A DNA stretch of 57,750 nt from Candidatus Desulfofervidaceae bacterium (GTDB taxonomy: Bacteria > Desulfobacterota > Desulfofervidia > Desulfofervidales > Desulfofervidaceae). The notes under the pieces are model-generated. The model searched no databases, was not told where the DNA came from, and worked only from the letters and a program-made list of their open reading frames with translations. Location: contig JAMOPI010000012.1 in assembly GCA_027064585.1 (NCBI GenBank), forward strand, positions 1 to 57,750, read 5' to 3'. The position numbers were made by a program, and so were the translations under genes. Positions 13,954-47,952 of this stretch are shown here, in pieces. The number at the start of each line of letters is the position of its first letter. The stretch's first letter is position 1.

Positions 13954-14688
13954 ATGGGAGGAAAGAGCTTTTTTATAGATACAAGCCGGTGCACAGCGTG
14001 CCGTGGTTGTCAGATTGCCTGTAAGGAATGGCACGGGCTGCCGGCGACAAAGACAACACAGGTAGGATGGGGTAACCACCAAAATCCTAAAGATCTGAAT
14101 TTTTATACATATAAATTGGTGCGGTTTAGTGAGCATGAACGAAATGGTAAGGTTGTTTGGTATTTCTTTCCTGATCAGTGCCGGCATTGTCTTGAGCCTC
14201 CATGTAAGGATGTAGCCGATGGCTATGTTAAGGGGGCAATTGTAAAAGATCCAGAAACAGGGGCGGTAATTTATAATTTAGAAAAGCTTAAAAAGGTACC
14301 TTTTGATGAGTTATTGGATGCTTGTCCTTATCATATTCCAAGACAAGATCCTAAAACGGGTATGGTTGCAAAGTGTGATATGTGCATTGACAGGGTTAAG
14401 GCAGGGTTATTGCCTATGTGCGTAAAAACCTGTCCTACTGGGGCTATGAACTTTGGTGATCGGGAAGAAATGCTTGCTTTAGCCAAGAAACGTTTAGCAG
14501 AGGTGAAAAAGAAATTTCCTAATGCCCAGCTCTTAGATGCCGATTCTGTGCGGGTTATTTATTTGGTTTTAGATGATCCCAAACTTTATCATGAATATGC
14601 AGTTGCCTCTAAGGATGTGGGTATTACCCGTAAGGTAGCTTTAAAGAAATTATTTGATCCAATGGGTTGGTTGCAGAGCTTGGTATAG
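13954..14688 (+). CDS. fdhB: formate dehydrogenase iron-sulfur (beta) subunit
   Basis: This 244-residue ferredoxin-like electron-transfer subunit has four clusters' worth of cysteines: CTACRGCQIAC near residue 13, CRHCLEPPC near 75, then single Cys positions leading to CDMCIDRVKAGLLPMCVKTCP near 145-165. It lacks both a signal peptide and the C-terminal membrane anchor of the E. coli FdnH type, so it is presumably co-exported with FdhA through Tat as a complex. GGGAGG precedes the ATG. A terminator follows directly. Confidence 0.93.
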   Translation: MGGKSFFIDTSRCTACRGCQIACKEWHGLPATKTTQVGWGNHQNPKDLNFYTYKLVRFSEHERNGKVVWYFFPDQCRHCLEPPCKDVADGYVKGAIVKDPETGAVIYNLEKLKKVPFDELLDACPYHIPRQDPKTGMVAKCDMCIDRVKAGLLPMCVKTCPTGAMNFGDREEMLALAKKRLAEVKKKFPNAQLLDADSVRVIYLVLDDPKLYHEYAVASKDVGITRKVALKKLFDPMGWLQSLV

Positions 14689-35733: not shown

Positions 35734-37155
35734 ATGGCGGCCGAAGGACAAGAAAAACTTTGGGAGACTAAAAAATATGATGATGTAAGAATTTATTCAG
35801 ATGAGGAAATTTGGAACTATACAGATGAGGAGTTGGCTAATTATAAATGCAAGCATGATATTCCTCTTTTGGAAGAGTTAGAGGAAGGGCCTTGGCCAAG
35901 CTTTGTAAGCGATATCAAGCAAGAGGCCCTACATAGACACAAACTGCCACCAGACAAGTTGATGATTCCTGCTGATGTTTGTGATGACCTTTTAGGTCAG
36001 GTTGAGCTATCTTATGTAGAAAAGGAGACACACTGGAAACACGGTGGTATCGTTGGTGTTTTTGGATATGGCGGTGGTGTAATCGGAAGATACTCTGATC
36101 AGCAAGAGAAATTCCCCAGTATTTGGGCTTTCCATACCCTTCGTGTGAATCAGCCTGCAAGTAAGTTCTATAAGACTGATTATCTAAGGGCCCTCTGTGA
36201 TATCTGGGAATATAGAGGAAGCGGTTTAACCAATATGCATGGTTCCACAGGTGATACTGTTTTGCTTGGCACCCATACTGAACAGTTAGAACCTATTTTC
36301 TTTGATTTAACCCATGACCTTGGTGTTGACCTTGGTGGTTCTGGCTCTAACTTAAGAACACCTTCCTGTTGTGTGGGCAAGGCTAGATGCGAGTTTGCCT
36401 GTTATGATACGCAGGATATCTGTTATGAGCTGACCATGTATTATCAGGATGAGCTTCACAGGCCAGCCTTCCCATATAAGTTTAAGTTTAAATTTGATGG
36501 TTGTCCAAACTGCTGCGTGGCTTCTATTGCCCGTGCTGATATGTCTTATATCGGTACTTGGAAAGATGATATTCGCATTGACCAAGAGGCAGTCCGTGCT
36601 TATGTAGCTGGGGAACTTAAACCTAATGCAGGTGCCTTTGGTGATAGAGATTGGGGTCCATTTGACATCCAAAAAGAAGTTATTGACCTTTGTCCAGCCC
36701 AGTGCATGGAATGGGATGGTAAAGAATTAAAAATTAATAACAAAGAATGTGTCCGTTGTATGCACTGTATTAACGTTATGCCAAGGGCACTCCGGATTGG
36801 AACAGATACAGGATGCAGCATTCTGTTTGGGGCAAAGGCACCTATTTTAGAGGGTGCGCAGATGTCCTTATTGGCCATTCCATTCATTCGGGTAGAGAAG
36901 CCTTATGACAATATTAAAGCAATTGTAGAAAGAGTTTGGGATTGGTGGATGGAAGAAGGAAAGAACCGTGAACGTTTGGGTGAGCTGATTCAGAGAAAGA
37001 GCATTCAAGAATTTATAAAGGTGCTCGGTGTGCCGGCTATTCCACAAATGGTAAAAGAACCTCGTTCCAATCCATACATCTTCTGGAAAGAGGATGAGGT
37101 GCCTGGTGGATGGGAGAGAGACATTAAAGAGTTTAGGAAGAGACATCCGAGATAA
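35734..37155 (+). CDS. dsrA: dissimilatory sulfite reductase alpha subunit
   Basis: This 473-residue siroheme protein of the sulfite/nitrite reductase family reduces sulfite with DsrB in an alpha2-beta2 complex. Siroheme-[4Fe-4S] ligands lie in [12 protein letters not shown] near residue 212 and GCPNCC near 256; the inserted ferredoxin domain has CPAQCMEW...CVRCMHC around 320-350. It is somewhat longer than the 437 residues of Desulfovibrio vulgaris DsrA. AAGGAGG precedes the ATG. Confidence 0.97.
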
Positions 37156-37175
37156 AAAAACAAGGAGGTGCTATT

Positions 37176-38357
37176 ATGTCGCTTGGTAAGTTTGGTTATT
37201 ACAATCCAGACAAACCGCTAGAAGATAGAATTACGGATATAGGTCCACCACATTATGAGCAGTTCTTTCCACCTATTATTAAAAGGAATTATGGGAAATG
37301 GTTGTATCATGAAATTTTAGAGCCTGGTCTTATAGTACATGTTTCTGAGACCGGGGAGAAGGCCTACACGGTTAGGGTAGGTGGTGCGCGTTTAATGAGT
37401 GTCCAGCATATCCGTGAGATTTGTGATATTGCTGACAAATACTGTGATGGTTATGTGCGGTGGACAACGAGAAATTGTATTGAATTTATTACCGATAGTG
37501 AAGAAAAAGCTAGAGAATTAATGAAAGATTTGGAAAGCCGTAAATTCCCTAAGGGAAGCTATAAATTCCCTGTTGGCGGCACTGGATGTAGTATTACTAA
37601 CATTGTTCATACCCAAGGTTGGATCCACTGCCATACACCGGCTACAGATGCCTCTGGTATCGTGAAATCTGTCCATGATGCTCTTTTTGATTACTTCAAG
37701 ACCATGAAACTGCCGGCCAAGCTGCGTATTTCCTTGGCTTGCTGCTTGAACATGTGCGGTGCGGTTCATTGTTCTGATATTGCTATCTTGGGTGTTCACC
37801 GTAAACCTCCGATGGTTGACGATGAGGTATTGGCAAAGATATGTGAAATTCCGCTCGTTGTTGCTGCCTGTCCACTGGGTGCTATTCGTCCAGCTAAGAC
37901 TGAAGACGGCCGTAAGACGGTACGGGTGAATCAAGATCGGTGTATGTTCTGTGGTAACTGTTATACCATGTGCGCAGCTATGCCTTTGGCAGATAAGGAA
38001 GGTGATGGTGTAGCTATATTGGCTGGTGGTAAGATTTCCAACCGGAAGACTCCACCTAAGTTTTCCAAGGTGATTGTTCCATACATACCCAATGAACCAC
38101 CACGTTGGCCAAAGGTGGTAGATACGATTAAGAAAATTGTGGAAGTCTATGCTAAAGATGCTCGGAAATATGAACGCTTAGGCGAATGGGCTGAGCGGAT
38201 TGGTTGGGAGAAGTTCTTTGAAAAGACAGGTATTCCGTTTACGGAAAAGAGCTTGGACGACTATCGTTTGGCCTATGATACCTACCGGACGACAACACAC
38301 TTTAAGTACACTGAACATGTCTGGCAGTTAGCGAAGGCGCTTGAAGAGGCTGAATAA
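37176..38357 (+). CDS. dsrB: dissimilatory sulfite reductase beta subunit
   Basis: This 393-residue partner of DsrA contains [20 protein letters not shown] near residue 136 and [16 protein letters not shown] near 189, the siroheme-cluster region. A ferredoxin domain has [11 protein letters not shown] near 256. It lies 20 nt after dsrA with AAGGAGG. A terminator-like hairpin separates it from dsrD. Confidence 0.97.
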
Positions 38358-38373
38358 GGTAGCGTATAATATA

Positions 38374-38409
38374 GTGCCCCTCTCTTAGAGAGGGGCACAT
38401 AATTTTTTT
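38374..38409 (+). terminator. terminator/attenuator between dsrB and dsrD
   Basis: GTGCCCCTCTC (38374-38384) pairs perfectly with GAGAGGGGCAC (38388-38398), followed by ATAATTTTTTT. As no promoter is evident before dsrD, read-through probably sets its level below that of dsrAB. Confidence 0.9.
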
Positions 38410-38427: not shown

Positions 38428-38688
38428 ATGGCATCCATTGATGAAATCAAAAAAGTAATTGTTGATTTTGCTACAAATACTAAAAAAACAAAATTTTATT
38501 TTAAAGATATGGAAAAGGCAGTGCAAAAGGTAATTCCTGATGCTAAGCCAAGGGAAATTAAAAAGGCAGCTACTGCTTTGGTAAACGAAGGGACATTGGT
38601 ATATTTTTCTACTGGAAGCAGCACCATGTATGGTTTGAAGGGAAGAGGGATCTCGCTTGAAACAGAAGAGACAGGGAAGGCTGATTAA
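38428..38688 (+). CDS. dsrD: DsrD, sulfite reductase activator
   Basis: This 86-residue winged-helix-like protein matches DsrD: KVIVDFATNTKKTKFYFKDMEKAV then LVNEGTLVYFSTGSSTMYGLKGRG. DsrD is now regarded as an allosteric activator of DsrAB, not a DNA-binding regulator. AAGGGGTGGTGTC precedes the ATG. Its presence places the organism among sulfate reducers working in the reductive direction rather than sulfur oxidisers. Confidence 0.95.
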   Translation: MASIDEIKKVIVDFATNTKKTKFYFKDMEKAVQKVIPDAKPREIKKAATALVNEGTLVYFSTGSSTMYGLKGRGISLETEETGKAD

Positions 38689-38714: not shown

Positions 38715-38742
38715 AAAAGAGGGGCTTTTGCCCCTCTTTTTT
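38715..38742 (+). terminator. rho-independent terminator after dsrD
   Basis: AAAAGAGGGGC (38715-38725), loop TTTT, GCCCCTCTTTT (38730-38740), continuing into further T residues. It marks the end of the sulfate-reduction transcript. Confidence 0.92.
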
Positions 38743-38823: not shown

Positions 38824-39456
38824 GTGGGATTTGTACCTAAGGACATTGAGCGTTTTATTTATGAACAAAAATTATTGCTTGCCCAACAACCTGAATGCGC
38901 AACGGCCCATTATAATTTGGGCGTGGCTTTATTACGACAAGGGAAATTGGATGAAGCCTTAGATGCCTTTGAAGAGGCGGTAGAGACAGGGCAACGCATG
39001 TTTGAGGCGTTTGTCAATATTGGCTACATTTATTTTAAAAAGGGTGACATGGAAAAGGTTGTTCTGGCTAATAAGCGGGCGGTGGAGATTGAACCCCGTT
39101 ATGCCCGCGGTTACGCAAATATGGGTTTTGCCTATTTACAATTGGGCAAGACCGATGAGGCCATAGAGGCCTTAGAAAAGGCTATTGAACTCAATCCTAG
39201 AATTGTACAGGCTTATGCCAATTTAGCCAATGCTTACTTACAAAAGGGAGATATTGATAAGAGCATTGAGATAAATAAAAAAGCACTTGAGATTGCTCCA
39301 GATTTTGGCTTGGTGCATAATAATATTGCCTATGCCTATTATCTCAAGGAGGAATATGAAAAAGCCATTGCCCACTGTGATAAAGCAAGAGAATTGGGTT
39401 TTCAGGTACATCCTGATTTCTTAAAAGAGCTAGAACCTTATCGGCAGAAGGGATAG
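38824..39456 (+). CDS. tetratricopeptide-repeat protein
   Basis: This 210-residue protein is built almost wholly of five or so TPR units (for example AHYNLGVALLRQGKLDEALDAFEEAVE and AYANLANAYLQKGDIDKSIEINKKALE in part), with no signal peptide, so it is cytoplasmic. It starts with GTG behind AAAGGAGAG. TPR proteins mediate protein contacts; location between dsrD and YkgJ suggests, but does not prove, a link to sulfite reduction. Confidence 0.88.
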   Translation: MGFVPKDIERFIYEQKLLLAQQPECATAHYNLGVALLRQGKLDEALDAFEEAVETGQRMFEAFVNIGYIYFKKGDMEKVVLANKRAVEIEPRYARGYANMGFAYLQLGKTDEAIEALEKAIELNPRIVQAYANLANAYLQKGDIDKSIEINKKALEIAPDFGLVHNNIAYAYYLKEEYEKAIAHCDKARELGFQVHPDFLKELEPYRQKG

Positions 39457-39459
39457 ACA

Positions 39460-40092
39460 ATGGAGCTATTTGATTTCTTTGGTGAATACGAGATCTGGGC
39501 GAAGAAAGCAGATATTCTCTTTAAGAAGATTGCTCATGATTATCCAGAATGTGTGCGCTGTCGGTTGCACTGTGCCGACTGTTGCTATGCCCCATTTGGG
39601 GTGTTTTTGATAGAGGCGGCTTATATAAACTACCACTTTAATCGTTTAGATCCAAAACAAAAAAAGGAAATTTTTAGGCGAATTGAAAAGACAGAAACTC
39701 AGCTTCTCGCCGCAAGAGATCGGTTACATGTCTTTGATGATAATCCAAAGATGAAGGTCTTTGGTTTGGGTAAACAGCGGGTAAGATGTCCTTTCTTAAA
39801 TGAGCAGGATGAGTGCGACTTATATGACAGACGTCCTATTATATGCCGAATCTACGGCGTGCCCTTTGAGGTGAACAAAGAGGTTCATGTGTGTGGTCTG
39901 TCTGGTTTCAAAAAGGGAGTAACTTATCCCGTGGTGAAGCTGGATAAAATATATGACAACTTAAGACGGCTTTCAGAGGAAATGCTTGTTTGGGCTAGAT
40001 CTCCCCATCCTGAACGTTCTCTTCTTTTAATCCCCTTAAGCCGCGCCATCAGAATGCCTTTGGATCATATCATTCAGGGAATGATTGAATAG
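39460..40092 (+). CDS. YkgJ-family Cys-cluster protein
   Basis: This 210-residue protein has the YkgJ pattern of CVRCRLHCADCC near residue 26, then CPFL...CDLYDRRPIICRIYG around 104-125, which binds zinc or an iron-sulfur cluster in related proteins. Function is not known. It lies 3 nt after the TPR gene and overlaps the next, opposite gene by 23 nt at the 3' end. Confidence 0.85.
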   Translation: MELFDFFGEYEIWAKKADILFKKIAHDYPECVRCRLHCADCCYAPFGVFLIEAAYINYHFNRLDPKQKKEIFRRIEKTETQLLAARDRLHVFDDNPKMKVFGLGKQRVRCPFLNEQDECDLYDRRPIICRIYGVPFEVNKEVHVCGLSGFKKGVTYPVVKLDKIYDNLRRLSEEMLVWARSPHPERSLLLIPLSRAIRMPLDHIIQGMIE

Positions 40093-41182
40093 CCTGAAAG
40101 AGTGCTTGTGTGTGTTGAGGAAGGTTTTTTTCTAAAATAGAAAATTCTTCTTTGCCTTCATATAAGCGCAAGAGTTGGTTTAAAAGCAGGTTTAATTCCT
40201 TCTGGCTAAAGGCCTTAAGAAGATCTAATAACTCAATATTATCTAGCTGACATGTTGCCTTTAATTCCTCTTTTCTTTCTTGCATGGTCTTAAAAAAGCC
40301 GACAAGAACACCCTTTAGATAAAAGGGATCAAAAAGGCCTATTTTGCCGACACCGTCAAAGCGGTCTAGCCGTATACGTAGACTCAGATTTAAAAAGAAA
40401 TAAATCAGGGCCAAAATGGGATTGACTTCTTCTTGTGAAAGGAACTCCATAAAGGCTCCATATCCTCTTACGGTGGTTAGTCTTACCTTTATTTCTGTAT
40501 CGGCTCTAACAATAAAGTCTCCAGCCGCATGATGCCAAGGATATATCTGGGCAAAGGAAGAAAAATCGTAATAAAGACTGAGAATGTAAGCAATTTCTTG
40601 AAAAAGGGTAAAGGCCTCCCTTTTACTTAGATAGCGATAACCCCTTTTAAAATCCCATAAGACAATCTGTGTCTGTTTGTTTTTGTCTAAGGTAAGATGA
40701 AATTCATGATAATCCTCAAACCATTCTACCAGGGCTAAAGTCATATCATTTAAATCGGCCAAAACATATACCTTAGGTAAATATGGATAAGGAAATTTAT
40801 GATGCAGTGTGTTAAGCAGTTTGTATTCTCTTTTAAGCCATACAGCCTTTTCCTTTTCAGTTGCTACATTTACTCCAAAAACAAAACGGTTTTTTTTAGT
40901 ATGCACTTCTATCCTGGCGGGGTGATAAAAGGCACCGTGTTTTTCTGCCTGAATAATGATTTTTTGGATAGTATCAGAGAAAGGCTGGGCTGTTTGTTGA
41001 GTAATGGCAGAGATGAGGAAATGAAAATTATCCTGGCTTAAAAAGGTCTTTATTGTTTCAAAGTACCGAATATATGGCGTCCTCGCCCGATCCCCTTCTA
41101 AGGCAATATAGGCATTGGTCGCATCTACAGGGATGATTTTTTTAGGACCGGCTACGCAGTAAATCCATTGACACTTATTCAC
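40070..41182 (-). CDS. protein of unknown function, possible degenerate kinase fold
   Basis: I do not recognise this 370-residue protein. The middle part (about 90-240) resembles a kinase or phosphotransferase fold: a beta-rich start (HTKKNRFVFGVNVATEKEKA), a helix with REYKLLNTLHHKFPYPYLPKVY, a hinge-like LALVEWFEDYHEFHL and YPWHHAAGDFIVR where a catalytic loop would be. But the expected HxD is not clear, so it may be inactive. It is downstream of, and overlaps by 8 nt, the HEAT-repeat gene, forming a two-gene operon running against dsr and dsrN. Confidence 0.7.
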   Translation of the reverse strand: MNKCQWIYCVAGPKKIIPVDATNAYIALEGDRARTPYIRYFETIKTFLSQDNFHFLISAITQQTAQPFSDTIQKIIIQAEKHGAFYHPARIEVHTKKNRFVFGVNVATEKEKAVWLKREYKLLNTLHHKFPYPYLPKVYVLADLNDMTLALVEWFEDYHEFHLTLDKNKQTQIVLWDFKRGYRYLSKREAFTLFQEIAYILSLYYDFSSFAQIYPWHHAAGDFIVRADTEIKVRLTTVRGYGAFMEFLSQEEVNPILALIYFFLNLSLRIRLDRFDGVGKIGLFDPFYLKGVLVGFFKTMQERKEELKATCQLDNIELLDLLKAFSQKELNLLLNQLLRLYEGKEEFSILEKNLPQHTQALFQAIQSFPE

Positions 41183-42254
41183 CTTTAATGGCCTTAATTG
41201 CCTCTTTAGCCAGCTTGGCTATGGTTACTTCCTGAAGTTTATGATCAATGAAAATCTTGATCTTGATCTGATCTTTAAGTAGATCTTCTAATAAAGGCTT
41301 AGCTGGTTTTTCCTTAAAGATACCTAAACACCAAGCGGCGTGTCCTCTGATGGTGGGATCGGGGTCAGTAACCAGTTTATACAAGGCCGGCACAGCCTTT
41401 TTAACGGCTTCTAAATCTACCTGAGCAATACGACCGATACCCCAAAGGACTTCTTGCCGAGCACTATCGTCTAAAAAGAAGGAGACAAAAGAAGGAATAA
41501 AGTTTTTTAAGAATTTAGGATTCTGACTAATAATTTCGGCAGCTGCTCCTAAGGCACCCCAACAGGAGGCCGCGGTATCAGAACGGGCGTAAAGGATGTT
41601 ATGCAAGAGTTTAGTAACGATGTCTGGCCGTCTTTTTAAATAAAAACTACACACCTGTCCTAAGGCATAAATAGCCTGCCAGCGAAACTGTTCATCCACG
41701 GCATAAAGTAAACGCTGTAGGGCCGGAATAACCCTTGTATCTTCTTGGGCAAGGGCAAGAAGTTCATCCCATTTTTCTTCTTTGACCAGATTTTCTACTA
41801 AACGTTTGGAAAAACGAGCCGAACGTTTAGGTGTAACTTCTTTAACCACTAGCTCTTTGGCCTTTTCTTTTACCCCTTGAGCCGTAACTTCCTGGACATC
41901 ATCGTGTAAACGGAGAAAGAGAAGCTTTCCCCTAACCTTGCGGCCCTCATGCCCTCCGCCTACAACGATCTTATGTGAAATGCCATCATAGTTATCCAAC
42001 ACTGCTTCTACATAATCTTCTTCAGGTAAAAGTCCCCAAGCCAGATCCCAATCCTCATTACAGGCAAACAAAAGGGCCTCTACAAAGGCGGCGCCTTGAT
42101 GGTAGCCTGTAAAGTCATATACATAAACTGCTCCGCAGTTTTTACACACGCCAAGAGGAAATTCAAAATTACTAGAGACTAGCTCCTGCGGTGGATCAAT
42201 TAACTCATCACAAAAGGGACAGCGTGGTGGATATACCTTCGGTATAAGAGGCAA
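41175..42254 (-). CDS. zinc-ribbon plus HEAT-repeat protein, TTG start
   Basis: This 359-residue protein has an N-terminal zinc ribbon (CPFCDELI...CKNCGAVY, residues 12-40), a middle basic region and a C-terminal HEAT-repeat array (about 175-359, with ALQRLLYAVDEQFRWQAIYALG and IRGHAAWCLGIFKEKPA). The start is TTG at 42254, with GGAGG 7 nt before it. It resembles what I recall as the DVU0298-type proteins of sulfate reducers; that match is from memory and unchecked. It has its own promoter, and the unknown gene at 40070 follows. Confidence 0.75.
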   Translation of the reverse strand: MPLIPKVYPPRCPFCDELIDPPQELVSSNFEFPLGVCKNCGAVYVYDFTGYHQGAAFVEALLFACNEDWDLAWGLLPEEDYVEAVLDNYDGISHKIVVGGGHEGRKVRGKLLFLRLHDDVQEVTAQGVKEKAKELVVKEVTPKRSARFSKRLVENLVKEEKWDELLALAQEDTRVIPALQRLLYAVDEQFRWQAIYALGQVCSFYLKRRPDIVTKLLHNILYARSDTAASCWGALGAAAEIISQNPKFLKNFIPSFVSFFLDDSARQEVLWGIGRIAQVDLEAVKKAVPALYKLVTDPDPTIRGHAAWCLGIFKEKPAKPLLEDLLKDQIKIKIFIDHKLQEVTIAKLAKEAIKAIKGE

Positions 42255-42283: not shown

Positions 42284-42312
42284 TTTTTATCAGAGGTAAA
42301 AAGGTGTGTCAA
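42284..42312 (-). promoter_or_regulatory. promoter of the HEAT-repeat/unknown gene pair
   Basis: On the minus strand TTGACA (42312-42307), a 17-nt spacer and TAAAAA (42289-42284). The TTG start with GGAGG lies about 30 nt downstream. Confidence 0.7.
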
Positions 42313-42384: not shown

Positions 42385-42624
42385 ATGCCAATCTATGAGT
42401 TTCGTTGTCTTCAGTGTGGGCATGTGTTTGAGCTTTTTCGGGTAAGGTCGGATGAAGAGATAGAGATGAAATGTCCTGAGTGTGGTGGAGAAAATATTGA
42501 AAGGGTCATGAGCCGCGTCGGAGGAATTTCTGTAAAAGGAAGTGAGACCATGCCGCGTTCTACCTTCCGCTCATGTGCTGGGGGAACATGTGCGACCATA
42601 GAAGTGCCTGGACCGGAAAGATGA
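42385..42624 (+). CDS. FmdB-family zinc ribbon protein
   Basis: This 79-residue protein begins [16 protein letters not shown] and has a second [14 protein letters not shown] knuckle, the FmdB/CxxC_CxxC regulatory-type ribbon. Such proteins accompany many metalloenzyme operons. AGAGGAGGT precedes the ATG. Its stop overlaps the dsrN start (ATGA), so the two are translationally coupled. Confidence 0.9.
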
Positions 42625-44015
42625 CGAATCTCCCACGGCTGATCATTTCAGGACTAAGTGGCGATGCGGGCAAAACGGTTATTAGTACGGGTTTAACACG
42701 TGTTTTATCCAGACACAAAAGAGTCATCCCTTTTAAAAAGGGGCCGGATTATATTGATATGGCCTGGTTGGCCTTAGCCGCTGAGCGGCCTTGTTATAAT
42801 CTGGATCTCTTTTTTATTAATAAGGATCAGCTTTATCAGGCCTTTTTGTACAATGCCGCTAAGGGAGAGGTAGCCATTATAGAGGGTAACCGTGGGCTTT
42901 ACGATGGCTTGGATGTAGAAGGCAGTGCCAGTACAGCCACTTTGGCCAAACTCCTGCAAGCGCCTGTCTTTTTAATTATCAATTGCACCAAAGTAACTCG
43001 CACCGCGGCTGCTTTGGTCTTAGGCTGTATGCAGATGGATAAAGAAGTGCCGATTAAAGGCGTAATTTTAAACCAGCTTGCCCGTGCCCGGCATGAAAAT
43101 ATTATTAAGGAGTGTATTAAAAAATATTGCCAAATACCAGTCGTAGGGGCCATTCCCCGTTTAAGGAATGTAACCTTTCCAGGCAGACATCTAGGTCTTG
43201 TGCCACCCCAAGAGCATCCTAAGGCTGAAGAAGCAATTGAGACAGCGGCAGAGATTGTAAGTAAATATCTAGACCTAGATACCATCTGGCAGATAGCCAG
43301 TCAGGCACCACCATTAAATGTATCTTCAACCCAACAACTTTTTCCGCAAAAATCTTCTCTTGGTATTCGTATTGGCGTTATCCGGGATAGTGCCTTTCAG
43401 TTTTATTATCCTGAAAACCTGGAGGCCCTGGTGAGAGAAGGGGCAGAGGTGGTAGAGTTTAGTGCCTTAAAAGAAGAACGCCTGCCAGAAATAGATGCCC
43501 TTTATATTGGGGGTGGTTTTCCTGAAACACATGCCGAAATCCTGGCTAATAACTATCGCTTACGCCAGGCCATTAAAGAGGCGGCTGAAAGGGGGTTGCC
43601 TATTTACGCTGAATGTGGGGGATTGATGTATCTATGTAAGGAGCTCATCTGGCAGGAAAAAAAATATCCGATGGTAGGAATCTTTCCAGCGCTTATTGGA
43701 GTTAGTAAAAGGCCCCAGGGGCATGGCTATGTCATGGCTGAGGTTACGGCCCCTAATCCTTACTTTCCGGTAGGTGAGGTCTTAAAGGGACATGAATTTC
43801 ATTATTCCTATGTCTTAAGTTGGGAAGATACGCCTTATTATGCCTTTACCCTTAAAAAAGGCCACGGGGTAGACGGTAAGCATGACGGATTGATATATAA
43901 AAATATCCTGGCCGCCTATACCCATCTTCATGCCTTGGGAACTGAAGGTTGGGCAAGAGGAGTAGTTCAGCAGGCCTTAAATTATAAAAATACTCGGAGA
44001 GGAGATAATGTGTAG
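42621..44015 (+). CDS. dsrN: DsrN/CbiA-type siroheme or cobyrinate amidase
   Basis: This 464-residue glutamine-dependent amidotransferase has an N-terminal P-loop dethiobiotin-synthetase-like domain ([16 protein letters not shown] near residue 9) and a C-terminal class I GATase domain with [13 protein letters not shown] carrying the nucleophile Cys near 335 and a late HLHA. In sulfur-metabolising organisms this homologue (DsrN) is thought to amidate siroheme to the siroamide found in DsrAB; cobyrinate a,c-diamide synthase (CbiA) is the alternative. Absence of other cobalamin genes and the dsr context favour DsrN. It starts at 42621, overlapping the fmdB-type stop. Confidence 0.82.
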
Positions 44016-45990
44016 AGTTAGAGTTAAATTGGCTATCATCTTTTTTTGTTTACTTTTTTGGCCATCCATTACCTTGGCAAAGGATAATTCTTATGGAGCA
44101 ATTATTCTTTTAGACGAGGTAAAAAACAGCTTTGATGCTCAAGGGCGGGAGGTGTGGTATGAACACGAACTTATCCAGGTATTAAATCAAAAAGGCATCC
44201 AGGAGTTTGGTGAGGTTGTTATTCCCTTTTCTACCAAATACCAAAGGCTTAAAGTGCTTAAGGCTGTAACCATTTTACCAAACGGACAACGGGTAAAGCC
44301 AGCAAAGAATGCCTATAACATTGTGTCTCCTCCCTTTGTTATGCAGGCGCCTATCTATTCGGACATCAAGTATCAGACCGTTTCCATGCCTGCCCTCTGT
44401 CCTGGGGCAGTGATAGAATATGCCTATGAGCTGAGAACAATCAAGTCTTACATGCCTGGGCAGTTTTGGGCCAAAAATATTTTTCAACAGGAGTATCCGG
44501 TCAAACGGGCTATTTATGCCTTAAGTGTACCTAAAAGCAAGATACCTAAAATTATTTTAAAGCACATACACTTGCGGCCTAAAAAAGAAGTAAGAGGTGA
44601 CCAAATTACCTTCATCTGGGAAGTGCAAAATCTACCGGCCATTGATGCAGAACCTTATGCTCCGCCTTTAGAGGAACTGGCTGCTTCTATTGCCCTTTCT
44701 ACTGTACCTTCTTGGGACAAGGTAGCCCGCTGGTATTATGACTTGGCCAAAGATGCTCTTAAGCCCGATATAGCTATTAAGAAGAAGGCCAAGGAGCTAA
44801 CAAAGGACTGTAAAGACGAGTGGGCAAAGATAAAGGCCATCTATAATTATGTTGCCCAAAATATCCGCTATGTTGGAGTAGAATTTGGCATCAATGGTTA
44901 TAAACCCCATCCAGCCAGCCAAATCTTTCGGCTACGCTATGGTGATTGTAAGGATCACTCTACCCTCTTAATTGCTATGCTACGAAGTGTGGGGATTAAG
45001 GCCTATGCAGTACTTATCCCTACGACCGAGATTGCCAATTTAAACGAAAGGCTTCCTATGCCTGGGGCCTTTGATCATGAGATTACGGCCGTCTTGGTTC
45101 ATGGGAAATACATATTTTTAGACAGTACGGCCGAAAGCACGCCTTGTGGTCAACTGCCGCCTTCAGATCAGGGAAGAAGGGTCTTATTAGTCAAGGATGG
45201 AAAGGCCATTTTAACTACTACCCCTATCTTTGGGCCAAAGGCAAATCAGGAGATATATAAGGCCAGGTTTTGGCTTGATGCCGAAGGAGCCTTAAAAGGC
45301 ACAGGTAAGCTAGTTTATACTGGCGTATATGCCATGTTTAGACGGGAGCAATTTATCCACATGACCGCACAGCAGCGGCAGCGAACGATAGAGAAAATCA
45401 TAAACAACTTTAGCCCAGGCGCCCGGTTGTTGGGGATGGAAATTTCTCCTTACCAAGATCTCAACCAGTCCAATGTGAGGGTAGGTTTTAGGATAAAGGA
45501 CGATGCTTACGCTACCAGGACGGCTCATCTTTTATCCTTTCATCCACCTCTGCCTTCTTTTTCCCACCTCATTTCATTAGTGGCAGCGGCCAAGCGCCAT
45601 TATCCTTACCGTCTGGGCTATTGCCTGCGCAAAGTAGCCGAAGTAGAAATTCACTTGCCCCAAGGCTATCGCTGTATCTTCTTGCCTGAGGACTATCGTT
45701 ATACTAATGATGTTGGACGATTGGAGATACGCTGGAGAAAGAAGGGAGACGTTATCATTTGTCATGAGGTTTTAGAGGTAAGCCAGGCTGAGATTCCAGT
45801 TGATAAATATGCTCAGTTGCGGCATCTTTTTACCCTAGCGGTCAAGTTAAACCGCAATCAGGTTATTATTCTCAAAAAGACGCTGCTTGCAAAAAGGGTA
45901 AAAGGGCCTGTTCAAGAAGCACTAAGATCTCCTTTAACTGCCCACCAAAGGCAGGAGTGCGGCCAAAGAGATGAATGCGCTGTTTTGTAA
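44008..45990 (+). CDS. exported DUF3857/transglutaminase-like protein
   Basis: This 660-residue protein has a signal peptide (about 1-25, ending SITLA), a DUF3857 beta domain (about 30-240) and a transglutaminase-like domain with the catalytic triad Cys314 (RYGDCKDHS), His357 (FDHE) and Asp372 (FLDST), then a C-terminal beta domain. It is periplasmic or surface-exposed; such proteins are usually thought to be proteases or amidases rather than cross-linkers. It overlaps dsrN by 8 nt with GGAGAGGAG before the ATG. The last 119 nt also code for the BPL-N protein on the other strand. Confidence 0.85.
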   Translation: MCRVRVKLAIIFFCLLFWPSITLAKDNSYGAIILLDEVKNSFDAQGREVWYEHELIQVLNQKGIQEFGEVVIPFSTKYQRLKVLKAVTILPNGQRVKPAKNAYNIVSPPFVMQAPIYSDIKYQTVSMPALCPGAVIEYAYELRTIKSYMPGQFWAKNIFQQEYPVKRAIYALSVPKSKIPKIILKHIHLRPKKEVRGDQITFIWEVQNLPAIDAEPYAPPLEELAASIALSTVPSWDKVARWYYDLAKDALKPDIAIKKKAKELTKDCKDEWAKIKAIYNYVAQNIRYVGVEFGINGYKPHPASQIFRLRYGDCKDHSTLLIAMLRSVGIKAYAVLIPTTEIANLNERLPMPGAFDHEITAVLVHGKYIFLDSTAESTPCGQLPPSDQGRRVLLVKDGKAILTTTPIFGPKANQEIYKARFWLDAEGALKGTGKLVYTGVYAMFRREQFIHMTAQQRQRTIEKIINNFSPGARLLGMEISPYQDLNQSNVRVGFRIKDDAYATRTAHLLSFHPPLPSFSHLISLVAAAKRHYPYRLGYCLRKVAEVEIHLPQGYRCIFLPEDYRYTNDVGRLEIRWRKKGDVIICHEVLEVSQAEIPVDKYAQLRHLFTLAVKLNRNQVIILKKTLLAKRVKGPVQEALRSPLTAHQRQECGQRDECAVL

Positions 45991-47239
45991 TTTCTGGCTG
46001 TGGGGCGTGCAGGAGAGTCAGTTCAGGGTGGTTGAGGTAAAGTCGTTCCTGTAAAAGCAAGTGTTTGGCTTTTTCTAAAAATGCAGGTAAAAGCTGGGAG
46101 ACCTGCGTAAGAAATTCCACACAACCTAAGGGGGCATAAGGAAAGAAATTCTTTAGCTGTTTTTCTAATTCTTTAAGTATAAGATAAAGGGTGAGGTAAT
46201 GAAATCCCCTTATCCCTCGCCGCCAACGGATCATCCAGGTATTTACCCGATACCACAAAAATTGCCGCTTACCAAACTCCATAAATGCCTGCATAAGTTT
46301 TCTCAATCTACGGCTCAGGGGAAGGGCCTTTTCTGTGCGTTCCATTTGTATCTCTGCCCGTGGCAGATTAGGGTAGGACGTAGAGGGAAGAAGATATTGC
46401 CAGAGGTTAAAAAGGGCTAGGCCCTCCCAGGGATTATCAGGGGTGTCTAGATGAGGATAGGTCAGGACGACCTTTCCCTGACCATATCGGCTTTCTATCA
46501 CGGCCGGCTGGTCTATCAAAACATCGGGGTCAAGGTGTAACCGGTACTGCCTTTCAAAGGCAGTTAGGTCGGCGTATTGTTTGAGGTCGCTAATATTTAA
46601 ATCACTCACATAAAAATCTGAGGTAATACCGGCATAGGTAGCAATGATGTCTATTTGTCCGGTAGTGTCAAACAGGGCTGGCCACCAGACATAAAAGCTG
46701 GCCCTTGGTGAAAGGCCTTCCCAAAAGGGATGATGAGAGGGAGAAAGCCTTATTTTTCCATAAAAGTTAGCAATGTTTCTCTCTTTTTTGCGCCCACATG
46801 GTACTAGTCCTAGCCCATCTCTTTCCTTTAAGGCCAGACCACATCCGCCACAGATGCCCAGATAATTTCCACCCGCAGCCACAAAGACCTTAATGGCTTC
46901 CCGTCCTTCTTGTCCTAATACTTCGTTTTTTAAACTGGTCCAGCCTCCAGGAACAAGCAGGATGGGAAACTCACTTAACCGGCCAGCCTTAATTTCCCTT
47001 GCTGTAATGATATAAAAAGGAATGCCCAAGGTTTTAAGCTGCCAATAGGCCATCAGACCAAAGAGATAACTGCCTTCCCAAAAGAGGGCGATGGGACCGT
47101 ATTTACAAAGGGAAGCATCCTTAAAAGGCGAGAAAAGAAACTTCCTACCTTTGCGATAGACAGATTTATTTTCCCTTAATTGCGAGACGACCTGCTGAAG
47201 GATACGTGTTCCCTTAGCTGGCGTCCAGGTAAGGAACAT
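45872..47239 (-). CDS. BPL-N / class I amidotransferase-like protein
   Basis: This 455-residue protein has an N-terminal half like the biotin-protein ligase N-terminal (class I GATase-like) domain: ILLVPGGWTSLKNEVLGQEG and YLGICGGCGLAL with a nucleophile-elbow Cys. The C-terminal 160 residues are helical and not recognised. The start at 47239 overlaps the upstream metallo-hydrolase stop (TAATG) and has AAAGGAG before it; a longer frame starts at 47272. Enzymatic role unknown. Confidence 0.7.
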   Translation of the reverse strand: MFLTWTPAKGTRILQQVVSQLRENKSVYRKGRKFLFSPFKDASLCKYGPIALFWEGSYLFGLMAYWQLKTLGIPFYIITAREIKAGRLSEFPILLVPGGWTSLKNEVLGQEGREAIKVFVAAGGNYLGICGGCGLALKERDGLGLVPCGRKKERNIANFYGKIRLSPSHHPFWEGLSPRASFYVWWPALFDTTGQIDIIATYAGITSDFYVSDLNISDLKQYADLTAFERQYRLHLDPDVLIDQPAVIESRYGQGKVVLTYPHLDTPDNPWEGLALFNLWQYLLPSTSYPNLPRAEIQMERTEKALPLSRRLRKLMQAFMEFGKRQFLWYRVNTWMIRWRRGIRGFHYLTLYLILKELEKQLKNFFPYAPLGCVEFLTQVSQLLPAFLEKAKHLLLQERLYLNHPELTLLHAPQPEITKQRIHLFGRTPAFGGQLKEILVLLEQALLPFLQAASF

Positions 47240-47952
47240 TACGGGATCTGTCTCCTTTGGGCTACGGACCAAGCATGATTAGGAAGTAGAATATCAGCCA
47301 TTTCTTTAATCTTTTTAGCACTTTCATAGGCATCAATAGCATTGATGTGAATGCCAGGGGTAACGACCGGGCCAATCTTGGGAAAGTTCTTTTCGTTGCA
47401 GCAAAAGCCGGTAATAATGGCCTTGCCTTCGGTGGTATTTACCACTACCGACTGCCCACCAGGGGTGTGGCCAGGGGTGAAGACAACCCTAATGCCATCT
47501 ACGATTTCCTGGTCTCCTTCAATGGTAATTACATTAAGTCCGTCAAGAATGTCCGAATAATAACGATGGTCAATTGGATGAGGATTTAAGAAAAACTCAT
47601 ATTCAGCCTTCTGCACATAGATTTTGGCCTGGGGACATTTATAATCATTTTCACAATGATCATTATGAAGATGGGTATGGATAATGATATCTATGTCTTC
47701 TGGTTTTAATCCTACCTTGGCCAAGGCATCCTCGAAATAAAGGATGTCTACGCCGTATTTCTCTTTTAGCTCATCGGGCACGACGAAGTCTTCAAGCCCT
47801 GTATCTACAAGTATATTTTTATCACCACCCTTAAGATAAAACATGATAATCGGGATCCAAATGCGCTCTCCATAAAACTTTAGATAGGTCATCATTCCCT
47901 GATCAGTTTCTTTTGCCCCTACGACCAAGGGATAAATTGTATAGGTAGTCAT
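47239..47952 (-). CDS. metallo-beta-lactamase-fold hydrolase, lactonase-like
   Basis: This 237-residue MBL-fold enzyme has the metal-binding HTHLHNDHCEN near residue 91 and later HTPGGQ and NHAW ligands. Overall form resembles N-acyl-homoserine-lactone lactonases (AttM/AiiA type), but the substrate cannot be told from sequence. AAGGAGGG precedes the ATG. It is translationally coupled to the BPL-N gene downstream. Confidence 0.82.
   Translation of the reverse strand: MTTYTIYPLVVGAKETDQGMMTYLKFYGERIWIPIIMFYLKGGDKNILVDTGLEDFVVPDELKEKYGVDILYFEDALAKVGLKPEDIDIIIHTHLHNDHCENDYKCPQAKIYVQKAEYEFFLNPHPIDHRYYSDILDGLNVITIEGDQEIVDGIRVVFTPGHTPGGQSVVVNTTEGKAIITGFCCNEKNFPKIGPVVTPGIHINAIDAYESAKKIKEMADILLPNHAWSVAQRRQIP

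Follow-up and report, generated by a model that had tools for sequence, protein, structure and literature searches.

Dissimilatory sulfite reductase (DsrAB) drives sulfate respiration, and to our knowledge its assembly, including the loading of siroheme and iron–sulfur clusters, is poorly known. Among kinase-like folds, pseudokinases often act as allosteric switches, WNK carries a relocated lysine, and SelO and SidJ are supposed pseudokinases with other chemistry. The accessory protein DsrD is described as activating DsrAB allosterically (Ferreira et al. 2022, cited in PMC13293266). A large synteny study of Dsr proteins built on a chosen query set leaves HEAT and TPR proteins unmentioned (PMC10504309), and we found no literature joining dsrAB with a HEAT repeat, a pseudokinase, or YkgJ.

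We analyze here a pair of genes from a dsr island, encoding a HEAT-repeat protein (HEAT) and a 370-residue protein (K370). Together they make a strong candidate for a helper, so far overlooked, of the enzyme central to sulfate respiration. Neither K370 nor the pair was found described in the open literature; mention as a "conserved hypothetical protein" in subscription papers is possible.

Genomic Setting of the Gene Pair

The window—the whole 57,750-nt stretch analyzed, from a Candidatus Desulfofervidaceae bacterium—contains the following features around the pair:

35734..38357, + strand: dsrA and dsrB (dsrA by TIGR02064, 606 bits; dsrB by position and homologues)
38428..38688, + strand: dsrD (PF08679, E = 1e-28)
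38824..39456, + strand: TPR protein gene, in the conserved block (profile matches; 65 of the best 80 K370 loci)
39460..40092, + strand: YkgJ-type CxxCxxCC gene (PF03692), in the conserved block (Pfam; 49 of the best 80 K370 loci)
40070..41182, − strand: K370, a 370-aa protein of an unnamed family with a predicted kinase fold, predicted pseudokinase (GTG start; AF2/Foldseek; conserved beside dsr)
41175..41182, − strand: 8-nt overlap of the HEAT stop with the K370 start, GTGAATAA (sequence)
41175..42254, − strand: HEAT protein, 359 aa, with a zinc ribbon, a conserved segment of ~100 aa, and HEAT repeats (TTG start; NF045662, Pfam HEAT models, AF2/Foldseek)
42284..42312, − strand: possible promoter TTGACA-17-TAAAAA 5′ of the HEAT gene (letters present; weak)
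42385..42624, + strand: FmdB-type zinc ribbon gene, divergent from the HEAT/K370 pair (TIGR02605, PF09723)
42573..44015, + strand: DsrN/CobB-type amidase gene (TIGR00379, 456 bits against a cut-off of 261)

The first-pass annotation had proposed two overlapping genes between dsrD-TPR-YkgJ and fmdB-dsrN, and both open reading frames are present there, with 8 nt in common and the flanks as claimed. Conservation supports both genes as real: identity to the nearest relative, a Candidatus Desulfofervidaceae MAG (contig L028), is 51% for K370 and 72% for HEAT, falling to ~28–45% in distant relatives. The HEAT stop/K370 start overlap likely couples their translation, and a GGAGG lies seven bases 5′ of the HEAT TTG start. 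On its other side, the K370 gene converges on the YkgJ gene with a 23-nt overlap. The DsrN/CobB-type amidase presumably serves siroheme amidation, as its family does; its listed open reading frame overlaps fmdB (42573–42624), and translation more likely begins near 42622, where fmdB stops. Beyond dsrN, a DUF3857/transglutaminase protein (44008–45990) overlaps a convergent open reading frame (45872–47272) with a weak BPL_N (biotin-ligase N-terminal) match; NCBIfam names neither of these two. The sole match in an Rfam scan of the window was tRNA.

The annotation had also given the pair a promoter of its own, for which support is weak. TTGACA (42312–42307) and TAAAAA (42289–42284) exist on the − strand with a 17-nt spacer, but the second hexamer fits at just 4 of 6 positions, the promoter scan does not list the site, and the region holds 13 promoter-like sites against 9.4 ± 3.5 expected, within chance. 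Strong terminator-like hairpins of 11 pairs each stand in the dsrB/dsrD gap (38374–38398) and 3′ of dsrD (38715–38740); dsrD and TPR-YkgJ may therefore be separate transcription units or separately controlled.

Association with dsrAB

To place the pair among dsr organisms, we scanned 84,980 species genomes using K370 as the sole query and no dsr gene, which confirmed 369 relatives, the best 80 of which were kept. Among these best 80, dsrA, dsrB, or dsrD lies within 8 kb in 61 loci, and dsrA/B is present in 13 of the 16 loci with ~8 kb on both sides. By record names, the dsr-linked loci of this set fall in Deltaproteobacteria/Desulfobacterota, Nitrospirota, and Bacillota, with Desulfotomaculum copahuensis (L067) and a Peptococcaceae MAG (L072) as Bacillota K370 loci. 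Several gene orders keep the linkage across the three phyla: HEAT-K370 facing dsrD-TPR-YkgJ; K370 facing dsrN-dsrD-dsrB-dsrA; and TPR-K370-dsrA-dsrB-dsrD-dsrN, another common order, which is without HEAT. Fifteen of the 19 loci without dsr nearby belong to genomes in which dsrA scores over the curated cut-off at another site, and many of the 19 are cut by contig ends. Rarer K370 homologues outside dsr organisms are possible among the 289 weaker relatives beyond the best 80.

Co-occurrence was measured in 148 evenly drawn Desulfobacterota genomes, 74 with and 74 without dsrA. K370 is found in 23 of them, from 13 families: 22/74 dsrA-positive and 1/74 dsrA-negative genomes (Fisher P = 1e-6, relatedness uncorrected), leaving 52 with dsrA and no K370 and 73 with neither. 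K370 is thus encoded with dsrAB and co-occurs with it as a Dsr accessory protein would, with one exception, G097. The tie to sulfate/sulfite reduction that the first-pass annotation had suggested, and the co-occurrence with dsrAB that it had proposed to check, are both borne out by these counts. Its further suggestion, restriction to sulfate reducers, stands in part: in the profile searches K370 is nearly absent from dsrA-negative genomes, but G097 departs clearly from it.

G097 is 99% complete and keeps K370 with its motifs in the absence of dsrA and dsrB, which counts against a strictly DsrAB- or siroheme-bound role. Its K370 gene (L134, G097:C31) lies near a contig end, beside ThiF/MoeB-type and MoaD-type genes. 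A second apparent case of K370 without dsr, G158 (L077), was rejected: its dsrN is interrupted by a 100-N gap and a DsrC-like gene is retained, so faulty assembly may account for the absence of dsrAB. The gap, at 13973–14072 of L077 and 3045–3144 of L139, is on MAG chromosome CP070689, where dsrAB was not found. G156, G159, and G160 have K370 and no dsrA or dsrB over the cut-off; these are assemblies without reported completeness.

Within dsr-bearing lineages, K370 is patchy. Sampling of Nitrospirota (n = 100) found it in 1/39 dsrA-positive and 0/61 dsrA-negative genomes, and sampling of Bacillota (n = 299) in the center genome only (0/298 others). Because K370 is missing from 52/74 dsrA-positive Desulfobacterota and 38/39 dsrA-positive Nitrospirota sampled, DsrAB does not universally require K370. 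Mapped on a DsrA tree of 74 rows, K370 presence is clustered (8 changes against a shuffled mean of 19.1; 0/500 shuffles as low), and the clade of 17 rows to one side of the midpoint root is free of it. K370 therefore goes with particular DsrAB lineages.

Such a distribution, patchy and clustered, would also arise if HEAT and K370 stood beside dsr by history only, as an inherited or transferred island acting in an unrelated process, and the persistence of K370 in G097 fits that account. We nevertheless judge it very unlikely, given a linkage that persists over three phyla and several gene orders and the near-absence of K370 from dsrA-negative genomes.

The HEAT Protein and Its Partnership with K370

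The HEAT protein has a CPFC...C..C zinc ribbon, conserved among homologues, followed by a conserved segment of ~100 residues and C-terminal HEAT repeats (PF13646, PF13513, and PF03130 over cut-off in the window protein), as the zinc-ribbon/HEAT label first given to it implied. Residues 153–354 match NF045662 (161.4 bits; cut-off 75), which by sequence places the protein, as a long version, in the curated DVU0298 family. Of the "two unassigned genes" in the original description, K370 is indeed without a named family, but HEAT belongs to a curated one to which no function is assigned; the remark on similar HEAT proteins in other sulfate reducers was sound, as the DVU0298 family is found in them. 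One table lists DVU0298 as the D. vulgaris CO dehydrogenase (PMC2901600), apparently in error for a different locus tag. The AF2 model of HEAT (pLDDT 88.8) retrieves generic ARM/HEAT solenoids alone in Foldseek, and its N-terminal part gives no clue.

Full-length HEAT occurs in 30 of the 148 Desulfobacterota genomes, 28 of them dsrA-positive. DVU0298-type proteins, short or long, occur in 61/74 dsrA-positive and 4/74 dsrA-negative genomes of the same sample and are a near-marker of dsrAB. The source genome itself encodes a second, stand-alone short DVU0298-type protein of ~220 aa (G000:C17:21405-22037; L002), 26% identical to the HEAT part.

HEAT and K370 travel together, as the first-pass annotation had supposed. 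Full-length HEAT is codirectional with K370 in 42/42 loci and directly upstream in 36, about 20 of which overlap or touch K370 (ends extrapolated). Sequence distances correlate at 0.76 for K370–HEAT, 0.48 for K370–DsrA, and 0.80 for HEAT–DsrA. In the window's family, HEAT-K370-YkgJ-TPR forms one block even away from dsrABD (G074, G038; L005/L138, L004/L216), and where one genome holds dsr at two loci, a K370 block accompanies both (L030, L031). The partnership is not obligate: some dsr-linked K370 loci are without a nearby HEAT gene, and full-length HEAT is missing from 8 of the 22 genomes with both K370 and dsrA, 7 of which have a short DVU0298-type protein.

Dsr clusters without K370 show a different arrangement, in which HEAT is followed by a second TPR domain (L157 4273–6047) or fused to one (L159 4865–6613, L178 3484–5346, L183 11362–13110); this domain may take the place of K370. 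In L159 and L178, the surroundings of the HEAT gene include two distinct CxxCxxCC-type proteins.

Predicted Structure and Conserved Residues of K370

K370 has zero matches in Pfam and NCBIfam, 20 homologues searched against them give scattered chance matches alone, and searching PDB sequences with a profile of K370 returned nothing useful. K370 is a new family, both among dsr accessory genes and among kinase-like folds, and is absent from Pfam and NCBIfam. Its AF2 model, from a 21-sequence alignment, has a pLDDT of 92.2 and a pTM of 0.91; in a Foldseek search of the PDB, kinases account for all of the 50 best matches shown (best E 1.7e-5, probability 1.00), with TM-scores of 0.46 at most. Profile–profile comparison did not tie K370 to Hanks or APH kinases taken from relatives: hhalign against PF00069 and PF01636 gave probabilities of 0.5% and 0.1%, equal to unrelated controls. 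Because profile comparison gives no signal, it is the predicted structure that carries the kinase kinship. K370 is accordingly predicted to have a bilobal protein-kinase fold, in agreement with the kinase-like outline noted at first; the structure prediction proposed as a check gave kinases and no unrelated fold among the matches shown.

Residues were mapped to kinase sites by their position relative to the predicted strands, with 95–96 homologues aligned. The β-3 lysine is absent: strand 99–107 has no Lys in the VAxK place, and an invariant Lys81 occupies the glycine-loop position. The equivalents of the HRD Asp, the DFG Asp, and the catalytic-loop Asn are His217 (94/95), Thr237 (88/95), and Asp222. 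The helix-C glutamate has a counterpart at position 119, acidic in 95/95 homologues (E82/D13). Nineteen residues are invariant: K81, G83, P136, W154, E160, H162, W176, W216, A220, G221, D222, F223, L235, R239, R271, D273, G277, G295, and H357. Weak matches in G005 and G042 were set aside as a degenerate relative in which AGDF and the Arg are kept and the Lys and histidines are lost.

Without canonical kinase catalytic residues in this mapping, K370 is a predicted pseudokinase. Many of the invariant residues fall in kinase ligand-cleft segments (glycine loop, hinge, catalytic loop, and DFG place), and we therefore infer a bound ligand or altered chemistry and not a passive scaffold. Altered chemistry would make K370 an atypical active transferase of kinase fold, with a rebuilt site, modifying DsrAB, DsrC, or a cofactor. 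In such a site, Lys81 would pair with Glu119, His217 and Asp222 would act from the catalytic loop, and Arg239 would hold the DFG place. The constancy of K81, E160, H162, D222, R239, R271, D273, and H357, with H217 kept in 94/95 and position 119 always acidic, exceeds what a passive scaffold needs, and the relocated lysine of WNK and the chemistry of SelO and SidJ are precedents. The HRD and DFG Asp equivalents are nonetheless His and Thr, the mapping comes from a predicted model, and K370 shows no profile similarity to kinases; we consider an active transferase unlikely.

Proposed Function

We tentatively favor, at a little below an even chance, a two-protein accessory system that serves reductive-type DsrAB, likeliest in maturation or assembly, with K370 as a ligand-binding pseudokinase and HEAT as its scaffold. 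The genes, their conservation, their pairing, and their linkage to dsr are observations; the mechanism that follows is a proposal. HEAT and K370 would be made as a cotranslated pair of the reductive-type dsr island. The old nucleotide cleft of K370, lined by K81, E119, E160, H162, H217, D222, and R239, would bind a ligand, which could be a nucleotide, metal, or cofactor. HEAT, through its zinc ribbon and solenoid, would present K370 or the ligand to a client, most probably DsrAB. The likeliest step would be cofactor loading or a check of the holo-enzyme, together with the TPR and CxxCxxCC proteins. We favor maturation or assembly because the neighboring DsrN amidase, CxxCxxCC protein, and FmdB handle cofactors or metals by family. 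The scaffold or assembly role that the first-pass annotation had suggested is thus kept as a proposal, and its link to siroheme as a more tentative one.

The gene set around K370 weighs against the leading alternative, in which the pair regulates sulfite reduction: K370, as a pseudokinase sensor of a nucleotide, sulfur, or redox ligand, would control DsrAB/DsrC activity or dsr expression via HEAT. DsrN, FmdB, and the CxxCxxCC protein look more like cofactor or metal handling, and neither K370 nor HEAT matches a DNA-binding or signaling domain. Regulation would suit the patchy presence among dsrA-positive genomes, as expected of a dispensable modulator, the conserved residues kept in G097 without dsrAB, the frequent service of pseudokinases as switches, and the position of the K370 gene adjoining dsrD, whose product is described, in PMC13293266 (citing Ferreira et al. 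2022), as an allosteric activator of the enzyme. We hold it to be doubtful; among the alternatives it ranks first, followed by the atypical active enzyme and then by mere genomic proximity.

A bolder form of the accessory-pair reading, which we regard as distinctly unlikely, makes K370 a kinase-fold enzyme with a reinvented active site (Lys81/Glu119, His217, Asp222, Arg239), dedicated to reductive DsrAB, scaffolded by HEAT, and completing or licensing the sulfite reductase. If true, K370 would supply a missing factor in the production of active DsrAB outside sulfate reducers. K370, HEAT, the CxxCxxCC protein, and the TPR protein form a short gene list that makes DsrAB assembly a directly testable question.

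Comparison with Known Systems

Like DsrD, K370 and HEAT are encoded beside reductive dsrAB, as putative accessory proteins, but neither matches a DsrD model. The window HEAT protein differs from the DVU0298 family in its extra zinc ribbon and ~100 residues. It resembles the PBS-lyase HEAT proteins (CpcE/F and NblB type) in its HEAT_PBS and HEAT_2 matches over cut-off, whereas its match to NblB itself is weak (E = 0.003, 17.1 bits against a cut-off of 300). With protein kinases, the K370 model shares the strand order of the N-lobe, a helix C between strands 3 and 4, a hinge, a helix E, and a catalytic-loop hairpin. K370 differs from this superfamily in having no profile match, in lacking the β-3 Lys and the HRD and DFG Asp in the predicted mapping, and in carrying an invariant set of its own.
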